DNA from: a virus
Reading direction: 5' to 3' (one strand)
IMG/VR virus record: IMGVR_UViG_3300030117_003472
Location: 1-54,773 of that record
Length of the DNA: 54,773 bases
Below are positions 7,489-54,773 of the stretch, piece after piece; position 1 is the first letter of the stretch, and each line of letters opens with the position of its first letter. A program made the position numbers and the translations under genes. Under the pieces are notes generated by a model. The model was given only the letters and a program-made list of their open reading frames with translations. It had not been told where the DNA came from and did not search any database.

Positions 7489-8122
7489 ATACCACAGAAT
7501 CGGCATTATTGCCATCATAAGCAGTCCAGTACTGAACTTGAAGCGTTACTTGGAACTCTTCTACAGCATCTACCTGATCATAAGATAGTTCAACTGTGCT
7601 TACTGCACTTGGCCAGCAACCAACCATTTGGTAGCGTCTTAGTACAGGTAATGCAGCAGGGTTGTCCTTTCCTTTTACATTTAGATCTGTGTTAGCACGA
7701 CCCAACTGGTTTACTACCCAATCAGTGTAGTACTCAGCAGGGTTTAGGGTTCCTGAACCGTCAGATACTTTGACGATGTAGTTTGCCCATCTCTCGAATG
7801 CTGTTCTTAGTTTGAAATCGTTATCGTTGATAACTGTGATTGTCCAAGGATCGAATCTACGATCTCCTGCAACCTTGAGTTGACGACCTCTGAAGGGAAC
7901 AATGACTTCAGCGATGTTAGACGCTGGTAACTGTGCTCCTTTGATCATCATACGATGAGTAGTGTTCTCTATCTCCTCGTCGAATATACCTACACCTGAA
8001 GGGAAGTTTAGCTCAACCTCAAATAGATTAGGACGAGCACCACCACCAATGAGTCTTGATTTGAAAGAGTCGATTGATCTCTCGTTGTTAGGTATAGAAA
8101 AAATGTTTCTATCTAGTGCCAT
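7487..8122 (-). CDS. gp19: Tail tube protein gp19
   Basis: Stacks as hexameric rings to make the inner tube of the contractile tail. The 211 residues contain ARPNLFEVELNFP (about residues 30-42), matching ARPNLFQVEISYL in T4 gp19. VAGDRRFDPWTITVINDNDF corresponds to VAGDRTFDDWTVTVMNDEAH in T4. The C-terminal VGCWPSAVSTVELSYD...EEFQVTLQVQYW aligns with GLWPTNVGELQLDWD...QTFEVTLALDYW (quoted in part). It is longer than T4 gp19 (163), mainly through an N-terminal extension. A GAGGAA ribosome site precedes the start. Confidence 0.95.
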   Translation of the reverse strand: MALDRNIFSIPNNERSIDSFKSRLIGGGARPNLFEVELNFPSGVGIFDEEIENTTHRMMIKGAQLPASNIAEVIVPFRGRQLKVAGDRRFDPWTITVINDNDFKLRTAFERWANYIVKVSDGSGTLNPAEYYTDWVVNQLGRANTDLNVKGKDNPAALPVLRRYQMVGCWPSAVSTVELSYDQVDAVEEFQVTLQVQYWTAYDGNNADSVV

Positions 8123-8137
8123 TGTTTGGTTCCTCTA

Positions 8138-18498: not shown

Positions 18499-19335
18499 AT
18501 GGACAAGACACTCGTGATACTCACAGGACCTCAAGGATCGGGAAACCATCTGTGGTCAAAAATCTTCTCACTACACGAGGATGTTTTTGGGTGGAAAAGT
18601 CTTCTGGATAATTACTGGGAGGCACACCGTATATCAGAACCCTTCGCCAAGTACTGGAAAGATCCAGAGTTACTTGACGAATTTGATTGGTCACAAAGCG
18701 AATATTTTTTTACATCGGTTAGTGTCCCACTCGGCATCAAGGAATTAGGGACTATAAGACGTCCAAACATCATGCAGTTTGCAAAAAAGGTCGAGTCACT
18801 TGGGATCAAGGTGAGAATTTGTGTGGTCGGACGCGACCAGAATATTCTCAGACATCAGCAGACGAGACTTAGGGGAGAGTCTACGGTTAGGTACTTCTTG
18901 GATCAGTTGTCTGGTTTTTATAAACCTGTTTTCCTCAGTTACGAACTTCTGTACCTTTACAAAGAGGAGTACCTAAAATCTTTAGATATCGGCATGCCAA
19001 TCGCATGGTACGAGAGAGATAAGATCACTAATATACTTGAGTTAGATGCTAATAACAAGTATATAAGTTACATCAAAGACAGTCCTCTAGACGATTGCAA
19101 TAGAACAGGAGTTCCATCTCCATGGAATCCAAACATAGAAGAACCAATGAAACCTAAAGATAGGGATCATGCATATGATGAGGAAGGAACAGGTTGTTGT
19201 GGTGGATGGTCAGATCCCAATGATAAAAGAAATTTTAAAACTGAAATATCTACTGGAAATATAGTAGGAGATGTAGGTGTAGGTAATACTGCACGTAGTA
19301 GAACCGAAGACGAAAAATGGGTGACCTATGAGTAA
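18499..19335 (+). CDS. P-loop sulfotransferase/kinase-like protein, long paralogue
   Basis: A 278-residue protein with a nucleotide-binding loop at the N-terminus (LVILTGPQGSGNHLWSKI, residues 5-22), like the phosphosulfate or phosphate loop of sulfotransferases and kinases. The following GWKSLLDNYW and EPFAKYW blocks are shared with its tandem paralogue. VRICVVGRDQNILRHQQ (about residues 103-119) resembles the second phosphate-binding segment. The C-terminal 70 residues, absent in the paralogue, are Pro/Asp/Gly-rich, contain GTGCCGGWSDP and look disordered. The catalytic activity is not proven. It is transcribed opposite to its neighbours from a sigma-70-type promoter, and its end overlaps the next gene by 8 nt (ATGAGTAA). 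Confidence 0.7.
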   Translation: MDKTLVILTGPQGSGNHLWSKIFSLHEDVFGWKSLLDNYWEAHRISEPFAKYWKDPELLDEFDWSQSEYFFTSVSVPLGIKELGTIRRPNIMQFAKKVESLGIKVRICVVGRDQNILRHQQTRLRGESTVRYFLDQLSGFYKPVFLSYELLYLYKEEYLKSLDIGMPIAWYERDKITNILELDANNKYISYIKDSPLDDCNRTGVPSPWNPNIEEPMKPKDRDHAYDEEGTGCCGGWSDPNDKRNFKTEISTGNIVGDVGVGNTARSRTEDEKWVTYE

Positions 19336-19948
19336 AAAATTACTAATCGTTACAGGACCACAGGGTTCTGGTAATCATCTTTTTGCAAGACTTCTCTCAG
19401 CACACCCCATGGTCAAAGGATGGGATTCACTCAAAGATAATTATTGGGTGCCAAGTGATGAGGAACCATTTGCCAGATATTGGGTATACCCAGATGAATT
19501 AGAATTTCCAGAAGGAGATTTCTTCTGTGCAAATGTATCTGTACCATTCTTTTATGACGGTGTTAGACGCACACCAAAGATCAAGGAGGTTGCTTATAAA
19601 GCAGTCACCATGGGAATTGAACCGATTATAGCGGTTGTATGTAGAGATAGAAATATAAACGAACTACAACAAAAAAGAGTTGGTGGTGAAGTGACTATGG
19701 ATATTGCACTAGATTACTATTCTGATCTAAGGCATCATTTTATAGACCACGAGGCATTTTTCTTATACAAAGAAAGGTACATGGAGTACCTTGGGAGAAT
19801 ATTAGAGTTCCCTGTAACGAAAGAAGGCATCGACAATTTTGTAACTGTCGATGCCAATCATAAGTATGTCTATCCCATCAAAGAACATTGGTTAGATAAT
19901 GAGATCCGTAAAGGACGTAAATCCTTTAGACAACGGCTAGAGGAGTAG
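19328..19948 (+). CDS. P-loop sulfotransferase/kinase-like protein, short paralogue
   Basis: A 206-residue tandem paralogue of the preceding protein. Shared landmarks are LLIVTGPQGSGNHLFARLLS (6-25), GWDSLKDNYW, EPFARYW, IIAVVCRDRNINELQQ, YKERYM and the ending VTVDANHKYVYPIKEHWLD. The loop GPQGSGNH keeps Gly, Ser and the polar residues needed for phosphate binding, although it lacks the canonical Lys of GKS/T, which fits a sulfotransferase-like rather than kinase-like function (inference). The gene converges with the diiron protein gene and overlaps it by 23 nt. Confidence 0.7.
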   Translation: MSKKLLIVTGPQGSGNHLFARLLSAHPMVKGWDSLKDNYWVPSDEEPFARYWVYPDELEFPEGDFFCANVSVPFFYDGVRRTPKIKEVAYKAVTMGIEPIIAVVCRDRNINELQQKRVGGEVTMDIALDYYSDLRHHFIDHEAFFLYKERYMEYLGRILEFPVTKEGIDNFVTVDANHKYVYPIKEHWLDNEIRKGRKSFRQRLEE

Positions 19949-20600
19949 CAGTGTTCTTATTGCTGATCTCAAGTAGATCTGCTCTCATCTTCTCTACAAG
20001 TGAGAGAACATGTGATTGAAGTTCTTCGCTACCTTCAACTAATCTTGAAAGTGAACGTCCACCTAAGTTTGAGTGGAATCCTTCGTCTTTAGCAATAGTT
20101 GCATAACGTGAAGAGATAAACTTATCTTCTACACAGTCTGCCATTTCTTTCCATACTGCTTCTGCTCTTCCTTCTGCTACCAATTGGTATGCAGCGAGTG
20201 CAGCTTCATCATCAGATGCTTCATACTTATCTAAAAGTTCAGCACCTTTTGCCTGAGGTTTCTCTGCTTCAGCAGCGAATGCAGCAGCAACATCTAGTGG
20301 TTCACCAGTGATGTGCTCTATAACTTCCTTTACCATACGGAAGTGCTTTGCTTCGTCCATAGCTTGACGGCTTAGAAGTTCTAAGTCTTTTACGTCTGTA
20401 GAAGGATCGGAGGTGGCAACCTGACCAGCGATAGCGTACATGTTCTGAGCTTCGTTGACCATGCGTCCACGAAAATGCTCGACTAGATACTCATCACTGG
20501 GGTTGGAAGCGAAGAAACGACGAACGTTTGAGCGTGATGCTTCAAATAGTTCTTTGTTTCCCTCTTTGATCTTCTTGACAAAATCGGTTCCAGAAAGCAT
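19926..20600 (-). CDS. Ferritin-like diiron protein
   Basis: A 224-residue all-helical protein with the ligand pattern of a four-helix diiron carboxylate protein. It has Glu50 in NEAQNMY, DEAKH with Glu83 and His86, Glu143/Glu147 in EGRAEAVW, and DEGFH with Glu173 and His176. Two ExxH motifs separated by about 90 residues, each on a helix and preceded by a helix carrying a single Glu, is the classical arrangement of ferritin-like oxidases and oxygenases. The substrate cannot be told; oxidase, oxygenase, hydroxylase and iron storage are all possible. A CTAAATA box lies 23 nt upstream, within the end of the methyltransferase gene. Confidence 0.7.
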   Translation of the reverse strand: MLSGTDFVKKIKEGNKELFEASRSNVRRFFASNPSDEYLVEHFRGRMVNEAQNMYAIAGQVATSDPSTDVKDLELLSRQAMDEAKHFRMVKEVIEHITGEPLDVAAAFAAEAEKPQAKGAELLDKYEASDDEAALAAYQLVAEGRAEAVWKEMADCVEDKFISSRYATIAKDEGFHSNLGGRSLSRLVEGSEELQSHVLSLVEKMRADLLEISNKNTATPLAVV

Positions 20601-20622
20601 TGTATTTAACTTATCTACATTG

Positions 20623-21153
20623 TTATTTAGTATAGATGAAAAAGTATCTTAGATCATTCTGTTCTGTATATTCCATTTTCAAGTCTTTTACAACATAATT
20701 ATATTTTCTTGCGACTGAGTATATCTTTTTTTGTGACCACCCGAACCATTCAATACCTTCTACACCTCTATGTGGTATGCCAGGATTGACTCTGAATATC
20801 ATCTCCTTTCTAAACAACGGATGCAGTAGTCTTAATTGATTATCAATATTCTTCTCATCACCAAAGTTTATAGAACCTAAACACAACACTATATCAAATG
20901 CACTCTTCTCATATATGGGATCTGTAGGATCTGTTACCAAAGTCTCTAAAGATATTTTCATGTCAGCACAATCATTATAGGGGTCTATTCCTATAAGGTT
21001 GTGTATCTTTCCCTTGAGTCTATTATAACCACACCCTACATCTAGGACGCTATCAGGTCTCTGATTATTAACGTAATCGACCAGACTATAGCCGCTATAC
21101 TTAAGAAATTGATAATTCGTGTCTTTCCAGATTCCATTGAAATACGAGTCCAT
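20623..21153 (-). CDS. Class I SAM-dependent methyltransferase-like protein
   Basis: A 176-residue protein with a Rossmann-type SAM-binding core. Motif I is SVLDVGCGYNRLKG (residues about 35-48), and the acidic end of strand 2 is IGIDPYND. The motif IV region is FDIVLCLGSINFGD, where family members often carry substrate or SAM contacts. The chain is short for a full methyltransferase and lacks a clear substrate domain, so the substrate is unknown (small molecule, DNA, glycan or protein). Its start overlaps the stop of the 68-residue gene as TAATG. Confidence 0.75.
   Translation of the reverse strand: MDSYFNGIWKDTNYQFLKYSGYSLVDYVNNQRPDSVLDVGCGYNRLKGKIHNLIGIDPYNDCADMKISLETLVTDPTDPIYEKSAFDIVLCLGSINFGDEKNIDNQLRLLHPLFRKEMIFRVNPGIPHRGVEGIEWFGWSQKKIYSVARKYNYVVKDLKMEYTEQNDLRYFFIYTK
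20624..20630 (-). promoter_or_regulatory. Late promoter-like box CTAAATA before the diiron gene
   Basis: Minus-strand variant of the late promoter at the very end of the methyltransferase gene, 24 nt before the diiron protein start. Confidence 0.4.
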
Positions 21154-45038: not shown

Positions 45039-47134
45039 TAGTATCCGCTATTGCTTGTTGTCTGTGATCCGCTACTGCTTGTTGCCTGTGCTGTTGCTGC
45101 TGCTTGTGGTACATCGGTAATCTGTTGACTACCAACTGTATGTGTTGCACCTGTCATTTTGTTTCCTCCTGCCATAACATGGAATTCTCCATAATATGGT
45201 TGCCCATTCACATATCCCACTAAAGTTGTCTCTGTAGTGGTACTTGTAATAATTGCTCCTCTAACCTTTTTACCCGCAAAGTAACTTGACTCTGGAAGAT
45301 ATCTAGAACCTGATGTATTAGCACCAGTAGAGATGCTATCTATTCTTGTGAAGAAATCACTCTTAGATATATCAAACTGCAAGTACAATTCATTTTTGGC
45401 AAGAACATCATTAGACTGAGGTATTGCTTCTACCTCAATTACATCATCACTCTCTATTGTTGATGTGATGTTCACTGTGTCTAATACTATCTCACCCTTC
45501 TTATAATCAATACGTCCAAAGTTATTTGATATAACCTTGATGCTCTCATCATTTAGAATCTGGAACATGAATAGCGTTCCTGAGTCTTCATTGACCTTTA
45601 TATCACTAAAATAACAAGTACCCACCACATCAGATACATTGAATCCAGTTGAGTGAATATTGTATTTCTCATTTGGTGCATACATCTGATTCAAGAAACA
45701 TAATTCATATTGTGCAAATTGGTTTATCTTAGTGAAGATATTCCTTCGCATTTTCACTAAAGTTATGTTAGAGGTAATAGAAGTATCTACGTTGTCTATG
45801 ACTGACAATACTTTACTATAAGCAAATCTGCCACCAAACTTATTAAGTTCAGTGCCTGATGCAAATTGTGATAGTGAAGTTATTACATCTGTTTTTAGAT
45901 TATCAGGATCACCTACAAAGTTTGAGTTGTAGTAAATATACGAATCAATCTCCACATACAAGAATTTTAGATCCACAAATGATGGAACTATTCCTGCTAT
46001 GGAGTAATTTTTTAGTGAATTGAGTAATTGCTTCTTTGTTAGTTCTGACAAGAACGAACCGTTCTTTGGTTTTGCTGCTATGAATACCCTACCAAATTGT
46101 GGTGGATCGAGATCCTCACCACCATAGGCACTCACAGATTCTATATTTGGATATATTGATGGAATTATTGCTTCATAGTCATTAGCGGTCACTGCTCTAT
46201 GTTGTGCTGCATATAAACGTGGAGCATAGTATTTGACAGACTCTACTGGTTCTATCTCATCACCATTGGCGGATTTTTCATTAGAAGTAAAGAATACTCT
46301 AAAATCTGTTTCTTCAGCACCATCTTCATCGTTTATAAGACCGGCAAAAGTAAAGTTTTCTATACCATTACCTTCTTTACCATTAGTCTTTATGTAACTA
46401 ATTTCAATTATATTTCCTGACTCTAATTTTTTACCAAATACATTGTCACCAAATAATAGTTCGTATTTCTCATCTGTTGTCTCTTGTAACAAGTAGATAT
46501 TAGATGTTGATGTAATCCCTATAATGTTATCCACTAACTCATAACTTGTTGTTGTATTATCAGATGCACTATTTCTTATTTTTACACTAATTGTAGAAGT
46601 GTCTATACCATCATTAGGTAAAACATATCTTTCACTAGGATTATTATTATCTACAACATATGAGTTAGTGACATATTGACCTTGATATATTACTAACCTA
46701 CCTTGAGATGCTCCATTGAAGGCATTGAATGACACAGCCTCAGGTAGTGAGAAGACATAGTTTATATTTGATACTGAACCGTTTGCAATTACACCTGGTT
46801 GAAATGTTATCTGTTTTGTGTCTGTTGTTATACCTGATGCAGAAAAGTTGACAGTTGCTCTCGCTGCTCTTCTAGATCTTGGAACATAACCTATATTTCT
46901 TGCTAATGATACTACATTCTCTCTTAGAGTGGCACTATCAATGAATGTCTCATTGATCGCCATATTCGTATTGTATGCTGTGGTATATGAGTTATACGCT
47001 AATATATCAATCAGGATAGAAAGGTTAGACCCTTCAAAATCCATATCTTTGAATTGAGTATTTGCTCTAAGGTAATCCTTTATGGATGACTTTATATCCT
47101 CAAAGTTTAAGTTTGTAAATTGCTGTAGTGCCAT
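45038..47134 (-). CDS. gp6: Baseplate wedge protein gp6
   Basis: gp6 joins the six wedges into the inner baseplate ring (J-like fold shared with contractile tails). The 698 residues fit T4 gp6 (660). The conserved N-terminus contains FEDIKSSIKDYLRANTQFKDMDFEGSNLSILIDILAYNS (quoted only by its DFEGSNLSILIDILAYNS core) and the following NMAINETFIDSATLRENVVSLARNIGYVP core. VTANDYEAIIPSIYPNIESVSAYGGEDLDPP is the typical central block (core YEAIIPSIYPNI). The C-terminal 60 residues are Ala/Thr/Gln/Ser-rich. TAATG overlaps with both gp25 and the gp7-like gene. Confidence 0.96.
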   Translation of the reverse strand: MALQQFTNLNFEDIKSSIKDYLRANTQFKDMDFEGSNLSILIDILAYNSYTTAYNTNMAINETFIDSATLRENVVSLARNIGYVPRSRRAARATVNFSASGITTDTKQITFQPGVIANGSVSNINYVFSLPEAVSFNAFNGASQGRLVIYQGQYVTNSYVVDNNNPSERYVLPNDGIDTSTISVKIRNSASDNTTTSYELVDNIIGITSTSNIYLLQETTDEKYELLFGDNVFGKKLESGNIIEISYIKTNGKEGNGIENFTFAGLINDEDGAEETDFRVFFTSNEKSANGDEIEPVESVKYYAPRLYAAQHRAVTANDYEAIIPSIYPNIESVSAYGGEDLDPPQFGRVFIAAKPKNGSFLSELTKKQLLNSLKNYSIAGIVPSFVDLKFLYVEIDSYIYYNSNFVGDPDNLKTDVITSLSQFASGTELNKFGGRFAYSKVLSVIDNVDTSITSNITLVKMRRNIFTKINQFAQYELCFLNQMYAPNEKYNIHSTGFNVSDVVGTCYFSDIKVNEDSGTLFMFQILNDESIKVISNNFGRIDYKKGEIVLDTVNITSTIESDDVIEVEAIPQSNDVLAKNELYLQFDISKSDFFTRIDSISTGANTSGSRYLPESSYFAGKKVRGAIITSTTTETTLVGYVNGQPYYGEFHVMAGGNKMTGATHTVGSQQITDVPQAAATAQATSSSGSQTTSNSGY

Positions 47135-47538
47135 TATAACCTAGTTGGTTCTAAAATAAATTGGACATTCTGTGAGGGTGCATTGAGTCCCACAATCTTA
47201 TATTGTATAGAAACATCCAAAGCATTTTGTTCTGGTCTGCTTTCTACTACGACTTGTTGTAAAACTACTCTTGGTTCATGTTGTGATATGACCATCTCTA
47301 TTTCAGTTTGAATTGGTTCAATATAATCATCATTTGCTAATTCAAATAGAGATGAAGTAATTCTAGTGCCTAATTTAGTATTGAAAAATCTCTCACCAAT
47401 CTGTGTGCGTACAAGGTTTTGCACTGCACGTTTGATTGCATCTTCATTTTTTAGCATTATAATATCATTCGTCACAGGATGACGTTTGAAGGTCAAAGAT
47501 ATATCTCTGAATGGTTCTGATGTTCTCTGTAGTGGCAC
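47134..47538 (-). CDS. gp25: Baseplate wedge protein gp25
   Basis: The gp25-type wedge protein (lysozyme-like GPW/gp25 family) that bridges the sheath and the wedge. The 134 residues (T4 132) contain FKRHPVTNDIIMLKNEDAIKRAVQNLVRTQIGERFFNTKLGTRI as the family core (landmarks ERFFNTKLGTRI and DAIKRAVQNLV) and the C-terminal VDVSIQYKIV-type strand. It is the first gene of the baseplate operon, behind a GATAAATA late box, and its stop overlaps the gp6 start as TAATG. Confidence 0.95.
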   Translation of the reverse strand: MPLQRTSEPFRDISLTFKRHPVTNDIIMLKNEDAIKRAVQNLVRTQIGERFFNTKLGTRITSSLFELANDDYIEPIQTEIEMVISQHEPRVVLQQVVVESRPEQNALDVSIQYKIVGLNAPSQNVQFILEPTRL

Positions 47539-47566: not shown

Positions 47567-47574
47567 TATTTATC
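47567..47574 (-). promoter_or_regulatory. Late promoter GATAAATA before gp25
   Basis: Minus-strand late box 29 nt before the gp25 start and directly after a terminator. It probably drives gp25, gp6, the gp7-like gene and the 955-residue gene, which have no other promoter between them. Confidence 0.65.
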
Positions 47575-47587
47575 TATTTAGTGCCAC

Positions 47588-47611
47588 AAAAAAAGGGTTC
47601 GCACGGAACCC
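47588..47611 (-). terminator. Rho-independent terminator after the 53-residue gene
   Basis: Minus-strand stem GGGTTC/GAACCC with loop CGTGC followed by seven T residues. It begins at the stop codon of the small gene and separates the accessory region from the baseplate operon. Confidence 0.9.
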
Positions 47612-47772
47612 TATTCATGTCCTAGGTATCTTACTTCTACATCTTTGGGGTGTGGCCAACCGTTTTCGTAGAATTCATCTGCCAAATCTTGAGTAATCTC
47701 TTCCATTTCTTCTTCAGAGATGCTCTCATGTGTCCTTACCCCGTCAACGTAGATATCGTATCTGTCATCCAT
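47611..47772 (-). CDS. Small acidic protein, YDIYVDG family, 53 residues
   Basis: The chain starts MDDRYDIYVDGVRTHESISEEE and continues as a helix (EITQDLADEFYENG) and a strand (PKDVEVRYLGHE). The layout resembles a second small protein at 51.6 kb (YDVYLDN...AEEKRDQM...ISIKYHS), so they form a paralogous pair. The family is common in cyanophages and uncharacterised. A terminator coincides with the stop. Confidence 0.7.
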   Translation of the reverse strand: MDDRYDIYVDGVRTHESISEEEMEEITQDLADEFYENGWPHPKDVEVRYLGHE

Positions 47773-47805: not shown

Positions 47806-48573
47806 TTAGATTATTCTATTCTTTTCGTGACCTACTCTACATTTAGGATCTACCCATATTTCATACCCTGCTTTCTGTGCATCTAAACAGAATGATACAT
47901 CCTCTCCACACATGTCTTGTACTTCACCAGATTCAAATACTTGCATCTGTGGTGCAAACCATGGATACTTCATTTGCTCATTTTCAAACACACCATGCTT
48001 GATTAGCAACCAACCAAATCCAGAATAGTCAACTGTAAATGGTTTTCTTCTCTTTTGTATGCCATCTAACATCTCGTGGTTCATTACACCACCATTTGCT
48101 TTGAAATCCTCTTCTTCCATCCAATGTGCACAGGATGTGGTCTGTCCGTCCTCTGTAACGTACCAACCACCCGCTATATCCTTATCCATCCAAAGAAGTC
48201 TATAGAACTGTTCTAGACCGAATACGATGTCACTGTCGATCCATAACTGATAGTCATACTTCAACTTACCATCCCATGGTAACTGATCAGGACCTCTGAG
48301 AACATTTGCTCCTAGACACTTACATCTGGCAAAGTTTACCATAGATGAATAGTCTTGCGATATTTGTAGAGTACCGCCCTTCTGTACAATCTCAAATGCT
48401 AACTGTACAAAGTTTTTTAGATAGACGTATGAAACAGTCCTACCAGGTAAACAGAATATGAAAGTTTTGCCCTTGACTAACTCTCTTGCTGCTTCTATAG
48501 AAAACTCATTAGACTTTTCTGATTTACCACTGTTTGCTGGTGGTGTGGTGACCACTTTGAATCCTTTTGCCAT
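47806..48573 (-). CDS. Glycosyltransferase, GT-A fold
   Basis: Transfers a sugar from a nucleotide donor. The 255 residues include LWIDSDIVFG with the metal-binding DxD (Asp113, Asp115), a glycine-rich AGGWYV strand, and the later FCLDAQKAGYEIWVDPKCRVGHEK segment. CGEDVSFC carries the likely catalytic Glu-Asp (224-225) and His249 is a probable metal ligand. This layout matches family 2-like phage and archaeal glycosyltransferases. The donor and acceptor cannot be told from sequence. It opens the accessory cassette and lies beside carbamoyl- and sulfotransferase genes. A CTAAATA box is 33 nt upstream. Confidence 0.75.
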   Translation of the reverse strand: MAKGFKVVTTPPANSGKSEKSNEFSIEAARELVKGKTFIFCLPGRTVSYVYLKNFVQLAFEIVQKGGTLQISQDYSSMVNFARCKCLGANVLRGPDQLPWDGKLKYDYQLWIDSDIVFGLEQFYRLLWMDKDIAGGWYVTEDGQTTSCAHWMEEEDFKANGGVMNHEMLDGIQKRRKPFTVDYSGFGWLLIKHGVFENEQMKYPWFAPQMQVFESGEVQDMCGEDVSFCLDAQKAGYEIWVDPKCRVGHEKNRII

Positions 48574-48605
48574 TCCGAAAGATCTTTCAATTCATTATAC
48601 TGCGT

Positions 48606-48612
48606 TATTTAG
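48606..48612 (-). promoter_or_regulatory. Late promoter-like box CTAAATA before the glycosyltransferase
   Basis: Minus-strand variant in the 40-nt gap between the SGNH-like gene and the glycosyltransferase gene, 33 nt before its start. Confidence 0.4.
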
Positions 48613-48613
48613 T

Positions 48614-49237
48614 CTATGTCAATTGACCTATAATATAGTCTGCAACTCTTTTGTGACCTTCGATATTGAAGTGGCAAAGTGTCTTTTTCTCTATATCGCT
48701 ATAATAATATTTTTTATTTTTTCTTCTACCTAATAATGTTTTTTCCCTGTCAAGAGGGTTGTCGATCATAGTGCGGTTGGCGATTGTCTGCAATTTACCT
48801 TTACAACGTCTGCTCCAAACATTATCACCATACACATTATGATATTGCAACAAAAGAAGAGGAATATTTTTTTTATCAAACTCTTGTTCTAAAATGTATC
48901 GATTCTTATAAAAATTCAATGATCCTACCTCATCGTTATAATATTCTTCATAAAAACTTGGATGTTTCTGAGGATTAACATTTTTATTAAAATTCATTCT
49001 CTCAGCATGTGTCAGCATTATGATGGCATAATCACACACATTATCCTCTAAAAATTCTAATGATCTCATTACAATTTCATCATTGTTAGAACCACCTTTT
49101 GCGTCATTCAAATGATCTGCTTTGAAATAATTACTTACTAGGGTTGAGAATCTATCTCTGACTCCATAATAATCGTACTCACGATTATCCAATTCCATAC
49201 CCTTTGTATATGAGCAACCATTAAAATACAGAAACAT
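48614..49237 (-). CDS. SGNH hydrolase-like protein A
   Basis: A 207-residue protein with the landmarks of SGNH-type esterase or acyltransferase folds. The N-terminal strand ends in FNGCSYTKG with Ser9 as presumptive nucleophile. AKGGSNNDEI supplies the Gly-Asn oxyanion positions, and the C-terminal FNIEGHKRVADYI places His195. The same GCS(W/Y)xxG motif opens two plus-strand proteins near 53-54 kb. The longer start at 49276 adds 13 residues without homology to the paralogues, so the ATG at 49237 was preferred. It overlaps the end of the carbamoyltransferase gene. Confidence 0.6.
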   Translation of the reverse strand: MFLYFNGCSYTKGMELDNREYDYYGVRDRFSTLVSNYFKADHLNDAKGGSNNDEIVMRSLEFLEDNVCDYAIIMLTHAERMNFNKNVNPQKHPSFYEEYYNDEVGSLNFYKNRYILEQEFDKKNIPLLLLQYHNVYGDNVWSRRCKGKLQTIANRTMIDNPLDREKTLLGRRKNKKYYYSDIEKKTLCHFNIEGHKRVADYIIGQLT

Positions 49238-50600
49238 GATACTTTGAGGAGAAGTTGAGTGCGTCACAAAAATCATTTACCATAGGCATACCTCTTATAT
49301 TCAATGACGTATTCAAAAGCACGGGACAACCTGTATGTTCATACCACACCTCTAGAACATCCCTGAGGATGGATTCCGATGATTCTGGTACAGTTTGTAC
49401 TCTAGCACTATTATCGACGTGTAGAACCGCAGGAATGTCGTGTGGACGCTTACATTGATAAACATACGACATATATCTTGAATGTCCTGGCATTTCAAAA
49501 TAATCCGTACAATACTCTTCTAATATCGCAGGAGCGAAAGGTCTGAACTTTTGACGCCTTTTTATCGCATTTACTTGGTGTTTTGTTGAAATTTTGCGTG
49601 GATCCGCCAATAGACTTCGATTACCGAGAGCACGAGGACCAAACTCACTACGACCATTTGCGACACCCACGATTCCTTCTGACAAGAGTTCTGCGACGAT
49701 TTCATTAGGATCTGGTTTTCTAAGAATATTATAACCTAAGAATGGCGAGAATTGTACTTTATCACCATATGGAATCAATGCTGCTCCTAAGGCACCTCCA
49801 GCATCGCCTGGATTCGGCATAATCCATAAATTGCACATTTCCCTTAGTTTGGTGTTTACAACGCAGTTGAGAGCGACTCCACCGCCATAGCAGATGTTAT
49901 TTGAGTAAGTTAGTGCTATTTCAAAGATTTTCTTCAATTCATACTCTAAAACCACTTCTGCACTCTTTGCAATGTCGTGCGGAGCACCATGTAACTCTTT
50001 TATGCCCTTATGGTTGTTTTGGTGCAATAATGCGGAAACTTCGTCAATATACTTCGCTTCTCCGTACGCTGCCATGCCCATGAAGATATATTCCTCATCT
50101 AACGGTCTCAAACCCGCCCATTTCGTCAATGCGGAATACCACAGTCCAATTGACTTGGGATATCGCATACTCCATACTTTTTTGTACTCTGCCTTACCAT
50201 CAACCATTTTTGCAGTCCAGATCGAACTACAGTCCCATTCTCCGATACTATCGACCACCACACATGCTGCTTCCTCAAAAACGCTGGTTTGAAACGCAGC
50301 AGCAGCATGAGACAGGTGATGTTCGCTATAATGCGTTGGTTGCATGCATAATTCTCTATCTCGCCTCCATGCCTTCTGCCCTGCGGTAAATTGGCGTATT
50401 CTCTTGGGTAAGGGTCGTTCATAGAAGGATATTACGTCATCAAAGATATTTAATGCTTGAGCAGTTGCAGCAGCTTCTATACACAACTTCTTGTCATGTT
50501 TTTTTCTCGAAAAGCGTTCTCCATGCGTAGCATAGGCAATTATACCGCCATGCACACACGCAACAGCACTATCATGAAATCCTTCAGAAAAACCAATCAT
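49221..50600 (-). CDS. Carbamoyltransferase, NodU/TobZ-like
   Basis: Enzymes of this family make carbamoyl-adenylate and transfer the carbamoyl group to a hydroxyl of a sugar or antibiotic. In the 459 residues, the HSxHHxxH-type metal site is SEHHLSHAAAAF (His94, His95, His98), followed by VVVDSIGEWD. The ATP part has GGGVALNCVVN (239-249), the NPGDAGGALGAAL block and RSEFGPRALGNRSLL (317-331). KFRPFAPAIL and NTSLNIRGMPMV are the C-terminal YrdC-like-linked landmarks. All key residues appear intact. The frame opens with a TTG, but the ATG at 50600 overlaps the stop of the 39-residue gene as TGATG and is the better start. It probably carbamoylates a glycan. Confidence 0.92.
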   Translation of the reverse strand: MIGFSEGFHDSAVACVHGGIIAYATHGERFSRKKHDKKLCIEAAATAQALNIFDDVISFYERPLPKRIRQFTAGQKAWRRDRELCMQPTHYSEHHLSHAAAAFQTSVFEEAACVVVDSIGEWDCSSIWTAKMVDGKAEYKKVWSMRYPKSIGLWYSALTKWAGLRPLDEEYIFMGMAAYGEAKYIDEVSALLHQNNHKGIKELHGAPHDIAKSAEVVLEYELKKIFEIALTYSNNICYGGGVALNCVVNTKLREMCNLWIMPNPGDAGGALGAALIPYGDKVQFSPFLGYNILRKPDPNEIVAELLSEGIVGVANGRSEFGPRALGNRSLLADPRKISTKHQVNAIKRRQKFRPFAPAILEEYCTDYFEMPGHSRYMSYVYQCKRPHDIPAVLHVDNSARVQTVPESSESILRDVLEVWYEHTGCPVLLNTSLNIRGMPMVNDFCDALNFSSKYHVSVF

Positions 50601-50719
50601 CAATCTTTATCTTCGTCAAACATTGCGTCATCGTCATCATCTTCGTAAATAAACGGGTCTGCTTCTCTAATTTTTTTCAGTTTCCACCATGTAGCGATTT
50701 TATTCAATGGCCAGATCAT
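50600..50719 (-). CDS. Small protein with acidic tail, 39 residues
   Basis: The frame MIWPLNKIATWWKLKKIREADPF is followed by an acidic YEDDDDDAMFDEDKD tail. It overlaps the sulfotransferase-like gene stop by 4 nt and the carbamoyltransferase start. The W/K-rich amphipathic start may touch membranes. Such MIWPxNKI proteins are frequent in cyanophages and have no known function. Confidence 0.6.
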   Translation of the reverse strand: MIWPLNKIATWWKLKKIREADPFIYEDDDDDAMFDEDKD

Positions 50720-51609
50720 AATTTACTCCACTGTTCGGGAAGATCACCGAAGTAATCTTTGAAATGTATATAGACTGGTTTCAACATGTTCATTCCGTAT
50801 TCTTTTACCTCTTTTGGCATATGCATGATATCAGACTCCCACTGATCGTTCAAATATTGGATTCTAGGAGCATTAGGACCTAAATCAGGAACATATGCGT
50901 TTTTGTGTACGTCCTTTATCTCATAATCGATAAAATCCGATAATTCCTTTGTTTGCCCATTCCAAAACTCCTCCATAATTGTTATATGGCAATTATCGAT
51001 CCCAAACGCTTCTACAAACTTTAAAAAGAACTGTACATAGCCAAAATCGACTCCCATCTTCATAAATTGCCGAACTGGGTCTTTAGGATTTTGTTTTTGA
51101 CGCAAACTCCATAATCTGCGTAATGGATCACGGAAAACAACGTGAATTTTTACGTCAAACACGGATTTGAGTGCAGGAGCATATTTTCTTAAGAATTCTG
51201 GAGAACATTGTCCGTTAGGATTGGAAAAATCGCTCACTGCCTTGTAATCGTGTTTTATAAAGTCCCAATGCTTGACATAATACTCAATATACTTCTCTAT
51301 CGTAAATGGAGGACTCCAAAAATACTTTATTTCGTCTTCTGTCCAATTTCCACCTATATATTTCGACTCATGCGTGAATATCTTTGGTTTTCTGTTTGTA
51401 GTTGATTGTTTTGAAGGTCCGAAGAACTGTTTGTAGAATTTAACCCTCTCAAATGTGTTTCTGGTCTCAGATAAGTCCATCAACCACAAATATCCCTTTT
51501 CTTTGCGATGCCCACTGTGACAATACTTATTATACCACCCTAATGTATAATATAATGGAGTTGTACCAGACCATCCGGTTCCAACATTCAGAAATAGGGT
51601 GGGTTTCAT
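50716..51609 (-). CDS. Sulfotransferase-like protein A
   Basis: Sulfotransferases move a sulfuryl group from PAPS to an acceptor. The N-terminal loop NVGTGWSGTTPLYYTL (8-23) fits the 5'-phosphosulfate-binding loop. The strand VVFRDPLRRLWSLR (157-170) fits the 3'-phosphate-binding segment with Arg160 and Ser168. AVSDFSN (124-130) is a conserved core strand. The C-terminal PNAPRIQYLNDQWESDIMHM block is shared with the paralogue at 51.8 kb. The donor is inferred and the acceptor unknown. The start overlaps the stop of the 51-residue gene as TAATG. Confidence 0.75.
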   Translation of the reverse strand: MKPTLFLNVGTGWSGTTPLYYTLGWYNKYCHSGHRKEKGYLWLMDLSETRNTFERVKFYKQFFGPSKQSTTNRKPKIFTHESKYIGGNWTEDEIKYFWSPPFTIEKYIEYYVKHWDFIKHDYKAVSDFSNPNGQCSPEFLRKYAPALKSVFDVKIHVVFRDPLRRLWSLRQKQNPKDPVRQFMKMGVDFGYVQFFLKFVEAFGIDNCHITIMEEFWNGQTKELSDFIDYEIKDVHKNAYVPDLGPNAPRIQYLNDQWESDIMHMPKEVKEYGMNMLKPVYIHFKDYFGDLPEQWSKL

Positions 51610-51764
51610 TACGAGTGATACTTTATCGAGATTTGCTCGGCAGTATAATCAGTTTTGAGTCCTGCCATAATCATTTTCTGCATTTGGTCACGTTTTTCCT
51701 CTGCTTGCTGTCTAGTTAGCACAGAAAAAACAATCTCATTATCTAGGTAGACGTCATAGGACAT
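51609..51764 (-). CDS. Small protein, YDVYLDN family, 51 residues
   Basis: The frame MSYDVYLDNEIVFSVLTRQQ then AEEKRDQMQKMIMAGLKT and ends AEQISIKYHS. It overlaps the sulfotransferase A start (TAATG). It resembles the 53-residue gene at 47.6 kb in its opening YDxYxDx strand, helix and closing strand. Function unknown. Only 25 nt separate it from the divergent sulfotransferase B. Confidence 0.65.
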   Translation of the reverse strand: MSYDVYLDNEIVFSVLTRQQAEEKRDQMQKMIMAGLKTDYTAEQISIKYHS

Positions 51765-51789
51765 TTATTCCACCATAACTACTGTATAT

Positions 51790-52791
51790 ATGTCTAAACC
51801 AACATTATTATTGAATCCTGGCGTAGGATGGGCAGCTACCACTCCCTTCCACTACACTTTGACGCTTGATAACAAGTATGCCCATATGGGTCATAAGAAA
51901 GAGAACTGGTATCTGATGAGATTGTACAATTATCCAAAGTACGAGGAACAATTCAAAGAGATATACTCTGACAACTTCTCATCAAAGTACAATATTGACG
52001 TCAATAAACGTCCTTCTCTTCATCCTTGGGGTCAAACCTTGTCGAAGAGAAACAAATATGTGGCCAACACTTCGCTAGACCCATATTTTGCAAGTCCTCC
52101 ATCAATAGACAACTACATCTCTTACTGGAAGGGTCATTGGGAGAATATAAAAGGCACCTATGCAGCAGTTTGCGACTTCACAAACGGCAATTACGCACTT
52201 CCATACGAATTTTGGGTTGAAGTTGCTCCAAAACTACGAGAACACTTTAATGTAAAGGTCACTTTTCAGTTTCGTGACCCAGTAAGACGTTATTTTTCGG
52301 AAGTTGGTAGTTTATTGACTAAAAAATTCGAGTTTTCAGTTGAAAATTGTAAATTTTATTCAAATATGAAAACTAGGTTGCTAATTCGCAAGAAAAAACA
52401 CAAACAACTGTTCTTTCATCTTTTGAAACAGGGATGTCTTAGCGATTTATGTGATTTTTGCGGAGCATACACTATTTTTACCCGTGTATTCGGTGTAGAA
52501 AATACTTATGTTACCATAATGGAAGATTTGTGGGATAAAAATCAAAAAAAAGAGCAACTCGAAGCACTTAGTAACTTTTTGTCGTATAAAATTACAAAAC
52601 TTCATGACAATTGTTACGTTCCCAACATGGGAAGTCGTGCTCCTCACCTCCCATTCCTACAAGATCAGTGGGAAAGTGATATAGATGACCTAACTGCGGA
52701 TGATTATAATGTGGCACTCCTTTACATGTCTAGATATTATACAGATTTCAAAAATACCTTTGGGTATCTACCTACATCATGGAAAAAATAG
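51790..52791 (+). CDS. Sulfotransferase-like protein B, with insertion
   Basis: A 333-residue paralogue of sulfotransferase A on the opposite strand. Shared blocks include NPGVGWAATTPFHYTLT (9-25), NKYAHMGHKKE, AVCDFTNG (126-133), FQFRDPVRR (159-167) and SRAPHLPFLQDQWESDID. It carries about 50 extra residues after the phosphate-binding strand (170-225), rich in Lys, Phe and Cys (CLSDLCDFC), which differs in character from the rest. In the loop Gly-Ala-Ala replaces Gly-Ser-Gly, so the activity may be altered. Transcription is plus, divergent from its neighbours. Confidence 0.72.
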   Translation: MSKPTLLLNPGVGWAATTPFHYTLTLDNKYAHMGHKKENWYLMRLYNYPKYEEQFKEIYSDNFSSKYNIDVNKRPSLHPWGQTLSKRNKYVANTSLDPYFASPPSIDNYISYWKGHWENIKGTYAAVCDFTNGNYALPYEFWVEVAPKLREHFNVKVTFQFRDPVRRYFSEVGSLLTKKFEFSVENCKFYSNMKTRLLIRKKKHKQLFFHLLKQGCLSDLCDFCGAYTIFTRVFGVENTYVTIMEDLWDKNQKKEQLEALSNFLSYKITKLHDNCYVPNMGSRAPHLPFLQDQWESDIDDLTADDYNVALLYMSRYYTDFKNTFGYLPTSWKK

Positions 52792-52895
52792 CATTTCAAC
52801 AGACACATATCATGACAATGATCATGTTTCGTAAGTTGTTCAAGGACAAATATCAAAGATCCTTCAAGATTATGATGAGTTGCCCATGTTATTAG
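52779..52895 (+). CDS. Possible small protein, 38 residues
   Basis: A frame starting at ATG 52779 inside the end of sulfotransferase B and ending inside the start of SGNH-like B (10-nt overlap). It encodes MEKIAFQQTHIMTMIMFRKL and a Lys/Phe-rich helix ending SCPCY. There is no clear ribosome site. If it is not a gene, 94 nt between the two genes are unaccounted for. A reinitiation role is possible. Confidence 0.3.
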   Translation: MEKIAFQQTHIMTMIMFRKLFKDKYQRSFKIMMSCPCY

Positions 52896-53665
52896 TCACA
52901 TTTGGTTGTTCATGGACTCGTGGTGTCGGTGTGGCATACAAAAATGGCATGAAGAAAGATGAATATCTGTCAAAAAATGATGATGACATCCTTTGTGATG
53001 AATTATCCTTCCGAGGATTGCTTGCAAAGAAGTGGGATTGTACTAATCTCAACTTTTCGCAGATGGGTAGCAGTAATGATAGACAGTTTCGTAAAGCAAC
53101 CACCTATTTTAAGAGAAAACCTAGAGAAAAAGTCGTAGTATTATGGGGTATTACCTCTGTCTTCAGGCATGAGGTATGGTTGACAAAGAACCATGAAGGT
53201 AAATCGGGGTATCAGAACGTATTATATGGTCATGGAATGAATCGAGAGGTCAATAAGAAGTATAAAAAGTTTGATGTCAACCATCATTTGGAGTGGCACT
53301 TTGATAAAGAGCAAAAACTCAAAGAACTTTCACATATGATGAGGCATTGGAACCTCTTTTTTGAAGCATTAGGTATTGAAAACTACTGGTTTGACACATT
53401 CAACCATCATGAGTACCCTATTCCTGTAGATAGGATGCTGTTCAATGATAGAAAATATAGAGATTTGATGTCTATACTATGCGAAGACCTTGAATTTGAA
53501 AATTATGACCCTGATGAGTACCATGTTTCACAGTTCAATAACGATGATAGTAGAAGATTGAAGTTTTTAGAGAGGAGAGAACTGGTAAATCCTTACTCAT
53601 ATCACCCAACTCGTGAAGCACATGTTATGATGGCAAACTTATTCGACGAGGTAATCAAGATATGA
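52886..53665 (+). CDS. SGNH hydrolase-like protein B
   Basis: A 259-residue protein with TFGCSWTRGVG (Ser9 presumptive nucleophile), QMGSSNDRQ (Gly61/Asn64), VVLWGITSVFRHE and the C-terminal NPYSYHPTREAH (His240), fitting SGNH blocks I, II, III-like and V. The frame opens at a TTG (52880); the ATG at 52886 matches the start of its paralogues and was chosen. The next gene overlaps by 4 nt (ATGA), indicating coupling. The substrate is unknown: a glycan acetyl ester is a reasonable guess in this cassette. Confidence 0.65.
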   Translation: MLLVTFGCSWTRGVGVAYKNGMKKDEYLSKNDDDILCDELSFRGLLAKKWDCTNLNFSQMGSSNDRQFRKATTYFKRKPREKVVVLWGITSVFRHEVWLTKNHEGKSGYQNVLYGHGMNREVNKKYKKFDVNHHLEWHFDKEQKLKELSHMMRHWNLFFEALGIENYWFDTFNHHEYPIPVDRMLFNDRKYRDLMSILCEDLEFENYDPDEYHVSQFNNDDSRRLKFLERRELVNPYSYHPTREAHVMMANLFDEVIKI

Positions 53666-54456
53666 ACCTTATAACACTTGGATGCAGTTGGGTTTTTGGT
53701 ATTGGGTCATACTTTGACGCAGAAAACCCCGTCGACAGGGTAACATACAATACAACCTTTAGGAAAGGATCTGCTTATCGTCAAAGTGGAGAGGAATTTG
53801 AAGACGATACATGCTGGAGAAACAAACTTTGTAATGAATTGAACCTTACAAACATCAATTTATCCAGAGGTGGGTCATCAAATCAGTCACAATTCCGTCG
53901 TGCAACCAAATATTTTGCAGAAAATGAGATAGATTGGCAAAATACTGTTGTCTTATGGGGTATTACATCAATCTATCGTGATGAATTATGGTTCAATAGA
54001 CTCAAAAGTTACTCATCTGTAGCATTCAATCAAGCAAACCTTGATCCTACTAATAGATTGAGAGAAAAAAAGAAGACTGGTTTTGATACTTATGCTCATT
54101 TTGAGGAACATTTTGACGAAAAAGTGTTTATGACAGAGTTGAAGAACAATATACTTCATTGGCAGCATTATCTTGATTTACTTGGAGTGCCCTATGCATT
54201 CTATGAGACACTGAATACTACTGGTGCTATATCAAATCCAGCATTAGAAGAGGATATGTGTACGACTCTAGCGAAAAGAAATGGTTGGCGTGGTAAAAAA
54301 GACAAGTTCCATTTCTCAGATTGGTTTGATGACTGTAATCGGATTCAACGACTCATGGAAATAGGTATGGTAAACCCTTATTCATTCCATCCGACTCGAC
54401 AGGGTAATCTTGATATCGTAAAATTCATGAAACCCATTGTGGAGAAAATGCTGTGA
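53662..54456 (+). CDS. SGNH hydrolase-like protein C
   Basis: A 264-residue tandem paralogue of SGNH-like B. It shows LGCSWVFGIG (Ser9), SRGGSSNQSQ (Asn74), VVLWGITSIYRDE and NPYSFHPTRQG (His243). The conserved LWGITSxxRxE block, shared only by B and C, points to a sub-family with a fixed substrate. The ATGA start overlap with B and the GTG start of the next gene within its stop codon give a coupled cluster. Confidence 0.65.
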   Translation: MNLITLGCSWVFGIGSYFDAENPVDRVTYNTTFRKGSAYRQSGEEFEDDTCWRNKLCNELNLTNINLSRGGSSNQSQFRRATKYFAENEIDWQNTVVLWGITSIYRDELWFNRLKSYSSVAFNQANLDPTNRLREKKKTGFDTYAHFEEHFDEKVFMTELKNNILHWQHYLDLLGVPYAFYETLNTTGAISNPALEEDMCTTLAKRNGWRGKKDKFHFSDWFDDCNRIQRLMEIGMVNPYSFHPTRQGNLDIVKFMKPIVEKML

Positions 54457-54581
54457 TAGTCTGGGGAGTTGTCTGGATGATAGCAATTCTGATCGTAATT
54501 GTGTCTTGGTATATCTACTATATACTGAGTATGGCTTATAAGGAGATGAATGATGGGAGTGATGGTTCCACCAAGTCGTAA
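54453..54581 (+). CDS. Small single-pass membrane protein with GTG start
   Basis: A 42-residue frame beginning at GTG (54453) that overlaps the SGNH-like C stop, with GGAG 9 nt upstream. The sequence MIVWGVVWMIAILIVIVSW then YIYYIL is a transmembrane helix of about 24 residues, followed by a short polar tail. The topology (N-out or N-in) and role are unknown; membrane anchoring of a partner is possible. Confidence 0.55.
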   Translation: MIVWGVVWMIAILIVIVSWYIYYILSMAYKEMNDGSDGSTKS

Positions 54582-54773
54582 GAGTTGTTATAACTTCCGT
54601 GTAGTCAAGGTCAACAGAGTTGTCGATGGCGACACTATAGATGTGACGATAGATTTGGGATTTGATTTGATGAAGAAGGAGAGAGTGAGGGTTGCGGGAG
54701 TTGATACTCCTGAGAAGAGGACAAGAGATCTAGAAGAGAAGGCACTGGGTATAGATGCGACTAACTGGTTGAA
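54550..54773 (+). CDS. Thermonuclease (SNase-like), 5' part
   Basis: The window ends inside this gene; 74 complete codons are visible. NRVVDGDTIDVTID and KERVRVAGVDTPE are the calcium-binding and catalytic motifs of staphylococcal nuclease-like enzymes: Asp in VVDGDT, Arg and Asp in RVAGVDTPE, and its Glu. AAGGAG lies 6 nt before the ATG at 54550, which decides the start. It overlaps the small membrane-protein gene by 32 nt. Such nucleases occur in cyanophages and probably degrade host DNA or act in recombination. Confidence 0.85.
   Translation, partial: MMGVMVPPSRKSCYNFRVVKVNRVVDGDTIDVTIDLGFDLMKKERVRVAGVDTPEKRTRDLEEKALGIDATNWL

Follow-up and report, generated by a model that had tools for sequence, protein, structure and literature searches.

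T4-like cyanophages such as S-SSM7, S-SCSM1 and P-SSM2 carry a Nol-like carbamoyltransferase among sugar enzymes, according to sections of PMC3037559 and PMC9602691. The clusters of S-SSM7 and S-SCSM1 build sugars, with epimerases, heptose genes and, in S-SCSM1, many glycosyltransferases, and they sit elsewhere than the locus described here. Another system, the host recognition cluster of pelagimyophages and cyanomyophages, is a hypervariable part of the structural region that encodes glycan enzymes, for which an altered host surface and avoidance of co-infection have been proposed (parts of PMC7029224, whose main text never uses the term 'sulfotransferase'); unlike our locus, it lies between VrlC and gp14, together with tail fibres. 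The closest named relative of the virus studied here is the single-cell virus AG-345-D19 (gp23 87%), which has carbamoyltransferase (CT), sulfotransferase (ST), SGNH and small-protein genes together on one 8-kb contig; inspection of its unannotated record by eye also points to methyltransferases, an amidinotransferase-like gene and a radical-SAM-like gene. In open-licence PMC text we found no paper that names AG-345-D19 or, going by search listings, one that describes a phage set of this kind.

The window analysed here is the whole 54,773-nt stretch of IMG/VR record IMGVR_UViG_3300030117_003472, and all coordinates are positions in it. Open reading frame calls place one CT, two STs and three SGNH-like proteins at 48614–54456, with small genes interspersed, next to a GT-A-like glycosyltransferase (GT) gene. 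Our reading, held with slightly less than even confidence, is that this island looks like the cytosolic sugar-decoration set of an uncultivated marine cyanomyovirus-like lineage, whose enzymes would sulfate, carbamoylate and acylate or deacylate envelope sugars of the infected cell.

Gene map and borders of the island

The island is limited on one side by a phrog_452 nuclease (54550–54773, + strand, 6.5e-37), which continues past the window end, and on the other by the border formed by the GT and gp25. The gp25-like baseplate wedge gene (47134–47538, − strand, GTG start), assigned by synteny with gp25/gp6/gp7 of S-SSM7 and belonging to a cluster of 98, flanks the cassette from outside. On the same strand and 5′ of it lie two late-promoter-like motifs, ACTAAATA and GATAAATA (47567–47582), followed by an intrinsic-terminator-like hairpin with a T6 tail (47594–47612), a gene for a 53-aa protein (47611–47772; phrog_3252, 1.3e-10), the GT gene (47806–48573) and a further late-promoter-like ACTAAATA 5′ of the GT (48606–48613).

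The minus-strand part of the cassette begins with SGNH1 (48614–49237, ATG at 49237, with a longer reading to 49276), which overlaps the stop of the CT gene (49221–50603, TTG at 50603 or ATG at 50600). It continues with a 39-aa protein (50600–50719) that has a Trp-rich basic start and an acidic tail and, judged by eye, resembles a small-protein cluster (c10) present in 23 fragments; with the 297-aa ST-A (50716–51609); and with a 51-aa protein (51609–51764) that has matches in at least 56 fragments and to which the 53-aa protein beside the GT is distantly similar (hhalign prob 90, E 1.7e-6). On the plus strand follow the divergent 333-aa ST-B (51790–52791), SGNH2 (52886–53665, ATG at 52886 or TTG at 52880), SGNH3 (53662–54456), which overlaps the SGNH2 stop, and a 42-aa protein (54453–54581) that, by eye, has a single hydrophobic stretch and whose cluster (c46) occurs in 5 fragments. 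The enzyme types named in the sequence-only reading were right, and the small genes between them are present.

That reading also counted the GT as part of the cassette, which does not hold. The GT matches phrog_1574 and, weakly, a glycosyltransferase PHROG (1.4e-5), and shows a DSD motif by eye; a Pfam search gave no match. It is a common cyanomyovirus gene, matched by 105 phage records, and although it lies within 6 kb of the CT in 95 of 98 cases, it occurs without CT, ST or SGNH in 33 of 47 sampled loci having at least 4 kb upstream. We therefore treat it as a resident neighbour. The terminator said to separate the cluster from the baseplate genes is indeed there (47612–47594, − strand), but it closes a unit that can include the GT: because it lies 3′ of the GT and the small gene, these two and the minus-strand cassette genes can form one unit ending before gp25. 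In 77 of 98 relatives the interval between gp25 and the GT, whose length varies, holds a terminator-like site; 260-base control stretches do so in 5 of 98 cases.

Searched by open reading frame, Pfam and PHROG, the island contains no sugar-building genes such as epimerases or several GTs. It is a decoration-only set directly upstream of GT and gp25, unlike the cyanophage LPS and sugar clusters; it may act like a cyanophage LPS cluster, though we do not class it as one. The examined stretches of S-SSM7, S-SCSM1, S-SSM5, Sf-CH5 and C48C1 gave no ST or SGNH profile match.

Folds and catalytic residues of the enzymes

The CT belongs to the NodU/TobZ-type O-carbamoyltransferases, matching both Pfam Carbam_trans_N (4e-33) and Carbam_trans_C (9.6e-52) and retaining the metal-site residues. 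The motifs reported as intact are all present in the alignment: HHxxH, the next aligned Asp and GPRALGNRS. The closest solved structures are NovN, GdmN and TobZ; with these and NodU the window CT shares both domains and the metal-site histidines, but it is shorter (460 aa). Ten aligned relatives are 64–71% identical to it, and CTs of isolated phages are at most 38% identical, with the exception of AG-345-D19. The company that CTs keep cuts both ways. In S-SCSM1 and S-SSM7 they are placed among sugar genes, as our reading would have it; against it, the neighbourhood of the S-SSM5 CT includes no labelled sugar genes, and C48C1 has one glycosyltransferase 3.4 kb from its CT and its sole SGNH2-like match (26%, E 4e-4) about 54 kb away. 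Within the lineage, an SGNH gene is the first one of at least 60 aa downstream of the CT in 60 of 97 cases.

Alone, ST-A and ST-B have no Pfam match above cut-off and no PHROG match, but among 73 members of their family 10 match Sulfotransfer_1 and 8 match Sulfotransfer_3 (E up to 0.01). The AF2 model of ST-A (pLDDT 94.0) confirms a predicted sulfotransferase fold. Its best match is 3rnl (VIA Z 17.1, rmsd 3.2, 220 aligned), followed at ranks 2–15 by heparan-sulfate 3-O- and N-sulfotransferases (Z 15.1–16.5) and, further down, by the olefin-synthase/curacin STs (Z 13.5 and 12.8), tyrosylprotein ST (11.4–12.5) and SULTs (around 10). ST-A has in common with 3rnl and the heparan-sulfate enzymes the fold and the 3′-phosphate site RDPxRRxxS, across which the ST profile matches 3rnl and the 3-OSTs and in which R160 and S168 are conserved in 98% and 96% of 245 aligned members. 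At 10–16% identity, the closeness of the ST-A model to the heparan-sulfate enzymes does not fix its acceptor. The first loop of the STs appears to lack the usual basic residue: PAPS enzymes usually carry Lys or Arg at this column, and in about 99% of 244 STs the expected 5′-phosphosulfate-loop position holds W, F, H or Y, which we count against our reading, with a nearby K36 conserved in 88%. ST-B is placed in the family of ST-A by sequence alone. Two proteins encoded near the fibre genes in the window, from a cluster (c22) considered as further STs, gained no support in profile comparison.

SGNH3 likewise has a predicted SGNH fold, confirmed by its AF2 model (pLDDT 93.0), which aligns with 4rw0 (VIA Z 15.2, rmsd 2.9, 160 aligned). 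The best 50 Foldseek rows are mostly GDSL/SGNH esterases, with just one at E ≤ 0.001; carbohydrate esterases are among the structural neighbours, ranked behind TesA-like esterases. The folds proposed earlier thus hold for the two proteins modelled, SGNH3 and ST-A, and SGNH1 and SGNH2 share an SGNH BLAST cluster, a family assignment from sequence. Family columns are strongly conserved (S 96%, G 90%, N 99% and H 95% of 284–289 aligned members), and S, N and H are present in all three window proteins, which on their own have no Pfam match above cut-off and no PHROG match. Several observations weigh against the preferred reading. In the SGNH alignment no acidic residue is conserved within the five columns ahead of the His (D in 8% at the first), although the triad acid could sit outside them; 6 of the 75 members of the SGNH family hit phrog_5240, whose label reads tail fiber protein; and cytosolic esterases working on glycan are unusual. 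A simple hydropathy count, as distinct from a signal-peptide predictor, found no strongly hydrophobic N-terminus in any of the six cassette enzymes.

Distribution, selection and promoters

Searches by ST or CT match collected at least 118 viral fragments. Among the matches listed, CT, ST and SGNH occur together in 80 of the 118, and single fragments carry up to nine STs and up to ten SGNHs; recurrence of the same families in more than 100 viral fragments puts the set beyond chance. In a sample anchored on the GT, ST or SGNH without CT was never seen. The expectation that the set would co-occur in related phages holds within the lineage; outside it the CT can stand alone: in the annotated phage collection 134 records match the CT, compared with three for ST-A and ST-B, all from AG-345-D19. 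In the same collection SGNH1 matches one AG-345-D19 record, SGNH2 only C48C1 (the weak match above) and SGNH3 none. Distant CTs are present in isolated phages without the set, which is essentially confined to one phage lineage. A scan for bacterial donors among genome contigs with 13 STs, a weak search by a single peptide pattern, found none; with the CT alignment it returned one contig only, from a Rhodobacteraceae bin, phage-like by eye and with an SGNH gene directly after the CT.

On a quick GT tree (65 rows dereplicated from 184, 22 with and 43 without the cassette; 7 of 62 inner branches starred), presence of the cassette needs two changes, compared with a shuffled mean of 18.6. We therefore do not argue from independent repeated acquisition on this weakly supported tree. 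Fisher values for co-occurrence overstate independence for the same reason, and we count co-occurrence within essentially one lineage, rather than in many independent events, against the preferred reading.

In the listed comparisons, CT, ST-A, ST-B, SGNH2 and SGNH3 show purifying selection (dN/dS 0.07–0.39); against our reading, one of three SGNH1 comparisons gives 0.71 at dS 0.06. The ST arrays are not recent tandem duplications: for STs from fragments with at least three, and with outside matches above 90% identity excluded, 145 of 153 find their best relative on another contig (median best identity 74% outside the array, 35% inside). The lineage has a second ST locus, a methyltransferase–ST–ST arrangement (MT-ST-ST) in the tail-fibre region, which also speaks against the preferred reading.

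The late-promoter motif stands 5′ of gp25 in 98 of 98 cases and is rare at CT (2 of 96) and ST genes (6 of 257); its presence at 29 of 294 SGNH and 28 of 101 GT genes counts against our reading. None was found inside the window cassette.

Possible substrates and roles

The same enzymes could instead modify sugars on baseplate, fibre or capsid proteins, altering the charge and adsorption of the virion, which we regard as unlikely though worth serious weight. The island borders the baseplate block, relatives have a second ST pair beside tail-fibre genes, the cassette enzymes look cytosolic, the neighbouring GT carries the late motif in the window, and some SGNH members match a tail-fibre PHROG. 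However, the motif found at every gp25 is missing at 94 of 96 CT and 251 of 257 ST genes, which leans towards the host surface over the virion, and the GT, which would be the obvious enzyme for glycosylating proteins, lacks the cassette in most sampled loci. Tailoring of a secondary metabolite or signalling sugar is improbable. NovN, GdmN, TobZ and the curacin ST are tailoring enzymes, and the best solved CT relatives tailor antibiotics, but the island proteins inspected by eye include no scaffold-making genes, and up to nine STs per fragment would suit a polymer better than one metabolite.

It is hardly probable that the genes are low-benefit cargo, kept because the gp46–gp25 hot spot tolerates insertions: purifying selection, conserved catalytic columns and the lasting persistence of separate ST paralogues stand against this, even though cyanophages are known to have a hot spot here and the possibility of stuffer DNA has been raised for LPS clusters (in part of PMC3037559). 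Very improbable is modification of DNA, with the CT carbamoylating 5-hydroxymethylcytosine (5hmC) like the MetaGPA enzyme and the other genes as helpers. A phage CT with 5hmC activity exists, and the sections of PMC8670742 that describe it give the discriminating positions as W408, G421 and R423 of TobZ. The window CT, which shares 25.7% identity with that enzyme across 440 aligned positions, differs there, which disfavours this role: by hand placement it keeps G and R (GPRALGNRS) where the 5hmC enzyme reads GPRALCNTT, and has V instead of W at the third position. In the same sections, modified contigs are the only ones where a CT accompanies thymidylate synthase, and ordinary CTs have unrelated neighbours, glycosyltransferases for example; by eye, the representative island proteins include no thymidylate synthase.

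Action on envelope sugars of the infected cell best explains the gene content, the ST-A and SGNH3 folds, the catalytic motifs, the conserved place, the purifying selection and the ST assortment. PAPS is the known cofactor of sulfotransferases, as carbamoyl phosphate and ATP are of carbamoyltransferases; host PAPS would supply the STs, and carbamoyl phosphate and ATP the CT. Both would act on sugar hydroxyls while these are still cytoplasmic, on nucleotide- or lipid-linked units of envelope polysaccharide, and the SGNH proteins would attach or strip O-acyl groups. The altered glycan would then arrive at the outer membrane and change phage adsorption, most plausibly blocking co-infection. As each phage has its own assortment of long-diverged ST and SGNH paralogues, the pattern may differ from phage to phage. 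A possible but doubtful extension is a combinatorial sulfation and acylation code, in which an ancient ST/SGNH pool is reshuffled phage by phage around a near-constant CT at a single edge of the structural gene block, and each phage marks the infected cell (or virion) with a charged glycan pattern of its own, excluding rivals. We know of no earlier phage system with sulfation as a variable barcode, so such a code would be the first.

The biological function of sulfotransferases in phage genomes is called unclear in a section of a recent paper (PMC10580990). Here, rather than being stray genes, they form a set that is maintained in several copies at a fixed position and linked to the CT, which indicates a substrate class and supplies enzymes for testing. 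If our reading is true, ocean viruses would sulfate cyanobacterial surfaces during infection, which would matter for superinfection, for grazing and for the chemical make-up of the material that cells release.

Gene order and enzyme families

The window, a virus record of 54,773 bases, comes from a T4-like phage that has cyanophages as its named relatives. The phage gp23 shares 87% identity with that of the single-cell virus AG-345-D19 and at most 73% with the next records among the matches listed. Read from the baseplate side, the minus strand carries gp6, gp25, a terminator, a 53-aa protein, a GT-A-like glycosyltransferase gene (GT, 47806–48573), SGNH1, a NodU/TobZ-type carbamoyltransferase (CT), a 39-aa protein, the sulfotransferase ST-A and a 51-aa protein. 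Divergent from this block, the plus strand carries ST-B, SGNH2, SGNH3, a 42-aa protein and a nuclease. CT overlaps SGNH1, and SGNH2 overlaps SGNH3. The resident 53-aa protein (47611–47772) and the cassette-borne 51-aa protein (51609–51764) are distant relatives (hhalign probability 90, E = 1.7e-6).

The CT, ST and SGNH genes of the cassette lie at 48614–54456. In CT, the histidines of the metal site are intact, as is the GPRALGNRS motif. Its distant relatives are common in annotated phages (134 records), and phage CTs do not always sit among sugar genes: S-SSM5 CT has no sugar-gene neighbourhood, judged from annotation. On contig L156, which belongs to a Rhodobacteraceae bin and carries genes that look phage-like by eye, a CT is followed directly by an SGNH gene (7995–10132), near epimerase-like and cytidylyltransferase-like genes.

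Single-sequence searches of the window proteins were insufficient for the ST and SGNH proteins, whose identity was resolved by family profiles and two predicted structures. The ST-A prediction (pLDDT 94.0, alignment of 73 sequences) has as its top VIA match the bacterial sulfotransferase 3rnl (Z 17.1), followed by heparan-sulfate enzymes (Z 15.1–16.5), olefin-synthase/curacin (13.5 and 12.8), tyrosylprotein (11.4–12.5) and small-molecule sulfotransferases (about 10). Among the 73 STs, 10 match Sulfotransfer_1, 8 match Sulfotransfer_3 and none matches a PHROG phage protein family at E up to 0.001. R160, S168, E213 and Q256 are conserved at 96–100% (n = 245). PAPS enzymes usually carry Lys or Arg in the first loop, and the STs have an aromatic residue or His at the column compared with it.

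The SGNH3 prediction (pLDDT 93.0, alignment of 75) finds GDSL/SGNH esterases as its structural matches. Pfam families DUF6071, Lipase_GDSL_2 and Lipase_GDSL are matched by 18, 8 and 7 of the 75 SGNHs, and a PHROG named tail fiber protein by 6. Across 289 aligned sequences, Ser (96%), Asn (99%), His (95%) and an additional Arg (96%) are conserved; no conserved acid was found in the five columns preceding the His.

Recurrence, lineage and array composition

IMG/VR scans with the ST alignment (best 80 of 109 confirmed matches), CT (best 80 of 235) and SGNH2 (2) yielded 113 fragments from 109 contigs; four contigs of AG-345-D19 and the window itself bring the set to 118. CT, ST and SGNH occur together in 80 of these selected fragments; the others hold CT+SGNH (10), CT+ST (6), CT only (2), ST+SGNH (8), ST only (11) or none (1), counts in which genes may be missed as many fragments are short. 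Joint presence of CT and ST arises partly by selection, since fragments were picked by ST or CT from best-80 lists. SGNH was scarcely used in choosing fragments, and 297 SGNH ORFs (nested ORFs removed beforehand) are spread over 98 of the 118. GT lies within 6 kb of CT in 95 of 98 CT-bearing fragments, the usual arrangement being gp7-gp6-gp25-GT-(SGNH)-CT-array. In annotated phages, matches to ST-A and ST-B are restricted to three records, all AG-345-D19.

Scans anchored on the window GT and the S-SSM7 GT (best 80 matches each) gave 136 distinct loci. Among the 47 GT loci from these best-80 lists whose upstream sequence is 4 kb or longer, CT, ST and SGNH are all absent from 33, 9 have all three, 4 have CT+SGNH and 1 has CT+ST; ST or SGNH without CT was found in none. 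This pattern persists after dereplication at 95, 90 and 85% GT identity, with the CT–ST association borderline (p 0.048) in the 10 loci left at 85%. The cassette is absent from all 51 S-SSM7-anchored loci, from the best 80, with at least 2 kb upstream. On a weakly supported GT tree, two changes suffice to explain cassette presence, which makes the cassette a hallmark of one lineage and not a unit gained repeatedly.

A single fragment can hold as many as 9 STs and as many as 10 SGNHs. For STs from fragments with at least three, the best relative (identity ≤90%) is on another contig in 145 of 153 cases, and median identity is 74% to other-contig matches versus 35% within the array. On these ST sequence comparisons, each ST array is a collection of old paralogues. 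Among the comparisons listed, dN/dS is 0.07–0.17 for ST-A, 0.10–0.19 for CT, 0.24–0.34 for ST-B, 0.29–0.39 for SGNH2 and SGNH3, and 0.18–0.71 for SGNH1 (three comparisons) (NG86; pairs 68–97.5% identical, dS 0.03–2.5; a single pair for each identity value and no more than eight in a listing). An HNH-endonuclease-like gene (by eye; protein cluster c12, present in 21 fragments) lies within many of the islands and may drive island mobility. The AG-345-D19 cassette (L002, 1–7955) has two extra methyltransferases and amidinotransferase-like and radical-SAM-like proteins (by eye), the last from a cluster in 20 of 118 fragments.

A second variable place adjoins the tail-fibre genes (window 19926–21153). 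Relatives L077, L078 and L079 carry methyltransferase-ST-ST there; the window has no more than a methyltransferase-like gene and one further protein, which matches the ferritin superfamily weakly, below the cut-off, and carries a late motif. Two adjoining plus-strand genes of cluster c22 (18499–19948) also lie beside the tail-fibre genes. Neither has a Pfam or PHROG match, and the first has none in annotated phages; their start looks P-loop- or sulfotransferase-like by eye, a resemblance for which comparing profiles with those of the ST family gave no support. Beside an ST in AG-345-D19 (L003, 7443–9102) are CMP-Kdo-synthetase-like, SIS-isomerase-like and HAD-phosphatase-like genes (by eye).

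Transcription signals

A late motif published for cyanophages, NATAAATA (PMC2984593), was broadened here with [AC]CTAAATA, and genes too close to a fragment end were excluded. The broadened motif is found ahead of gp25 in 98 of 98 cases, of GT in 28 of 101, of SGNH in 29 of 294, of ST in 6 of 257 and of CT in 2 of 96. Neither gp6 (0 of 96) nor gp7 (0 of 73) has it, because both lie downstream of gp25, so little can be read from a missing motif at any gene that is not first in its unit. Its absence from the cassette carries weight mainly because no window cassette gene has it; late motifs in the window are on the minus strand only. Given the terminator 3′ of the 53-aa gene, minus-strand cassette transcripts can include GT and should end before gp25.

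Function of the cassette

For CT and ST, family membership defines the chemistry well. The most economical reading is that the cassette decorates cytosolic sugar units destined for the cell envelope, thereby blocking co-infection: the enzymes, in which a simple hydropathy count found no signal-like N-terminus, would modify sugar units in the cytosol before envelope delivery, and the modified sugars would block co-infection, a role of the kind suggested for glycan genes in related phages (PMC7029224; PMC9602691). Its main rival is decoration of the virion by the same enzymes, for which the second ST pair adjoining tail-fibre genes in relatives speaks. Modification of DNA by CT is disfavoured, as the known DNA-modifying carbamoyltransferase is 25.7% identical to window CT and lacks the GPRALGNRS motif kept there, and that enzyme is tied to thymidylate synthase (PMC8670742).

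Cyanophage carbamoyltransferases, LPS clusters and the gp46–gp25 hot spot were already known (PMC3037559), as were single sulfotransferases in phages (PMC10580990). A published phage set of CT, ST and SGNH was not found in the open-licence literature, judged mostly from listings.
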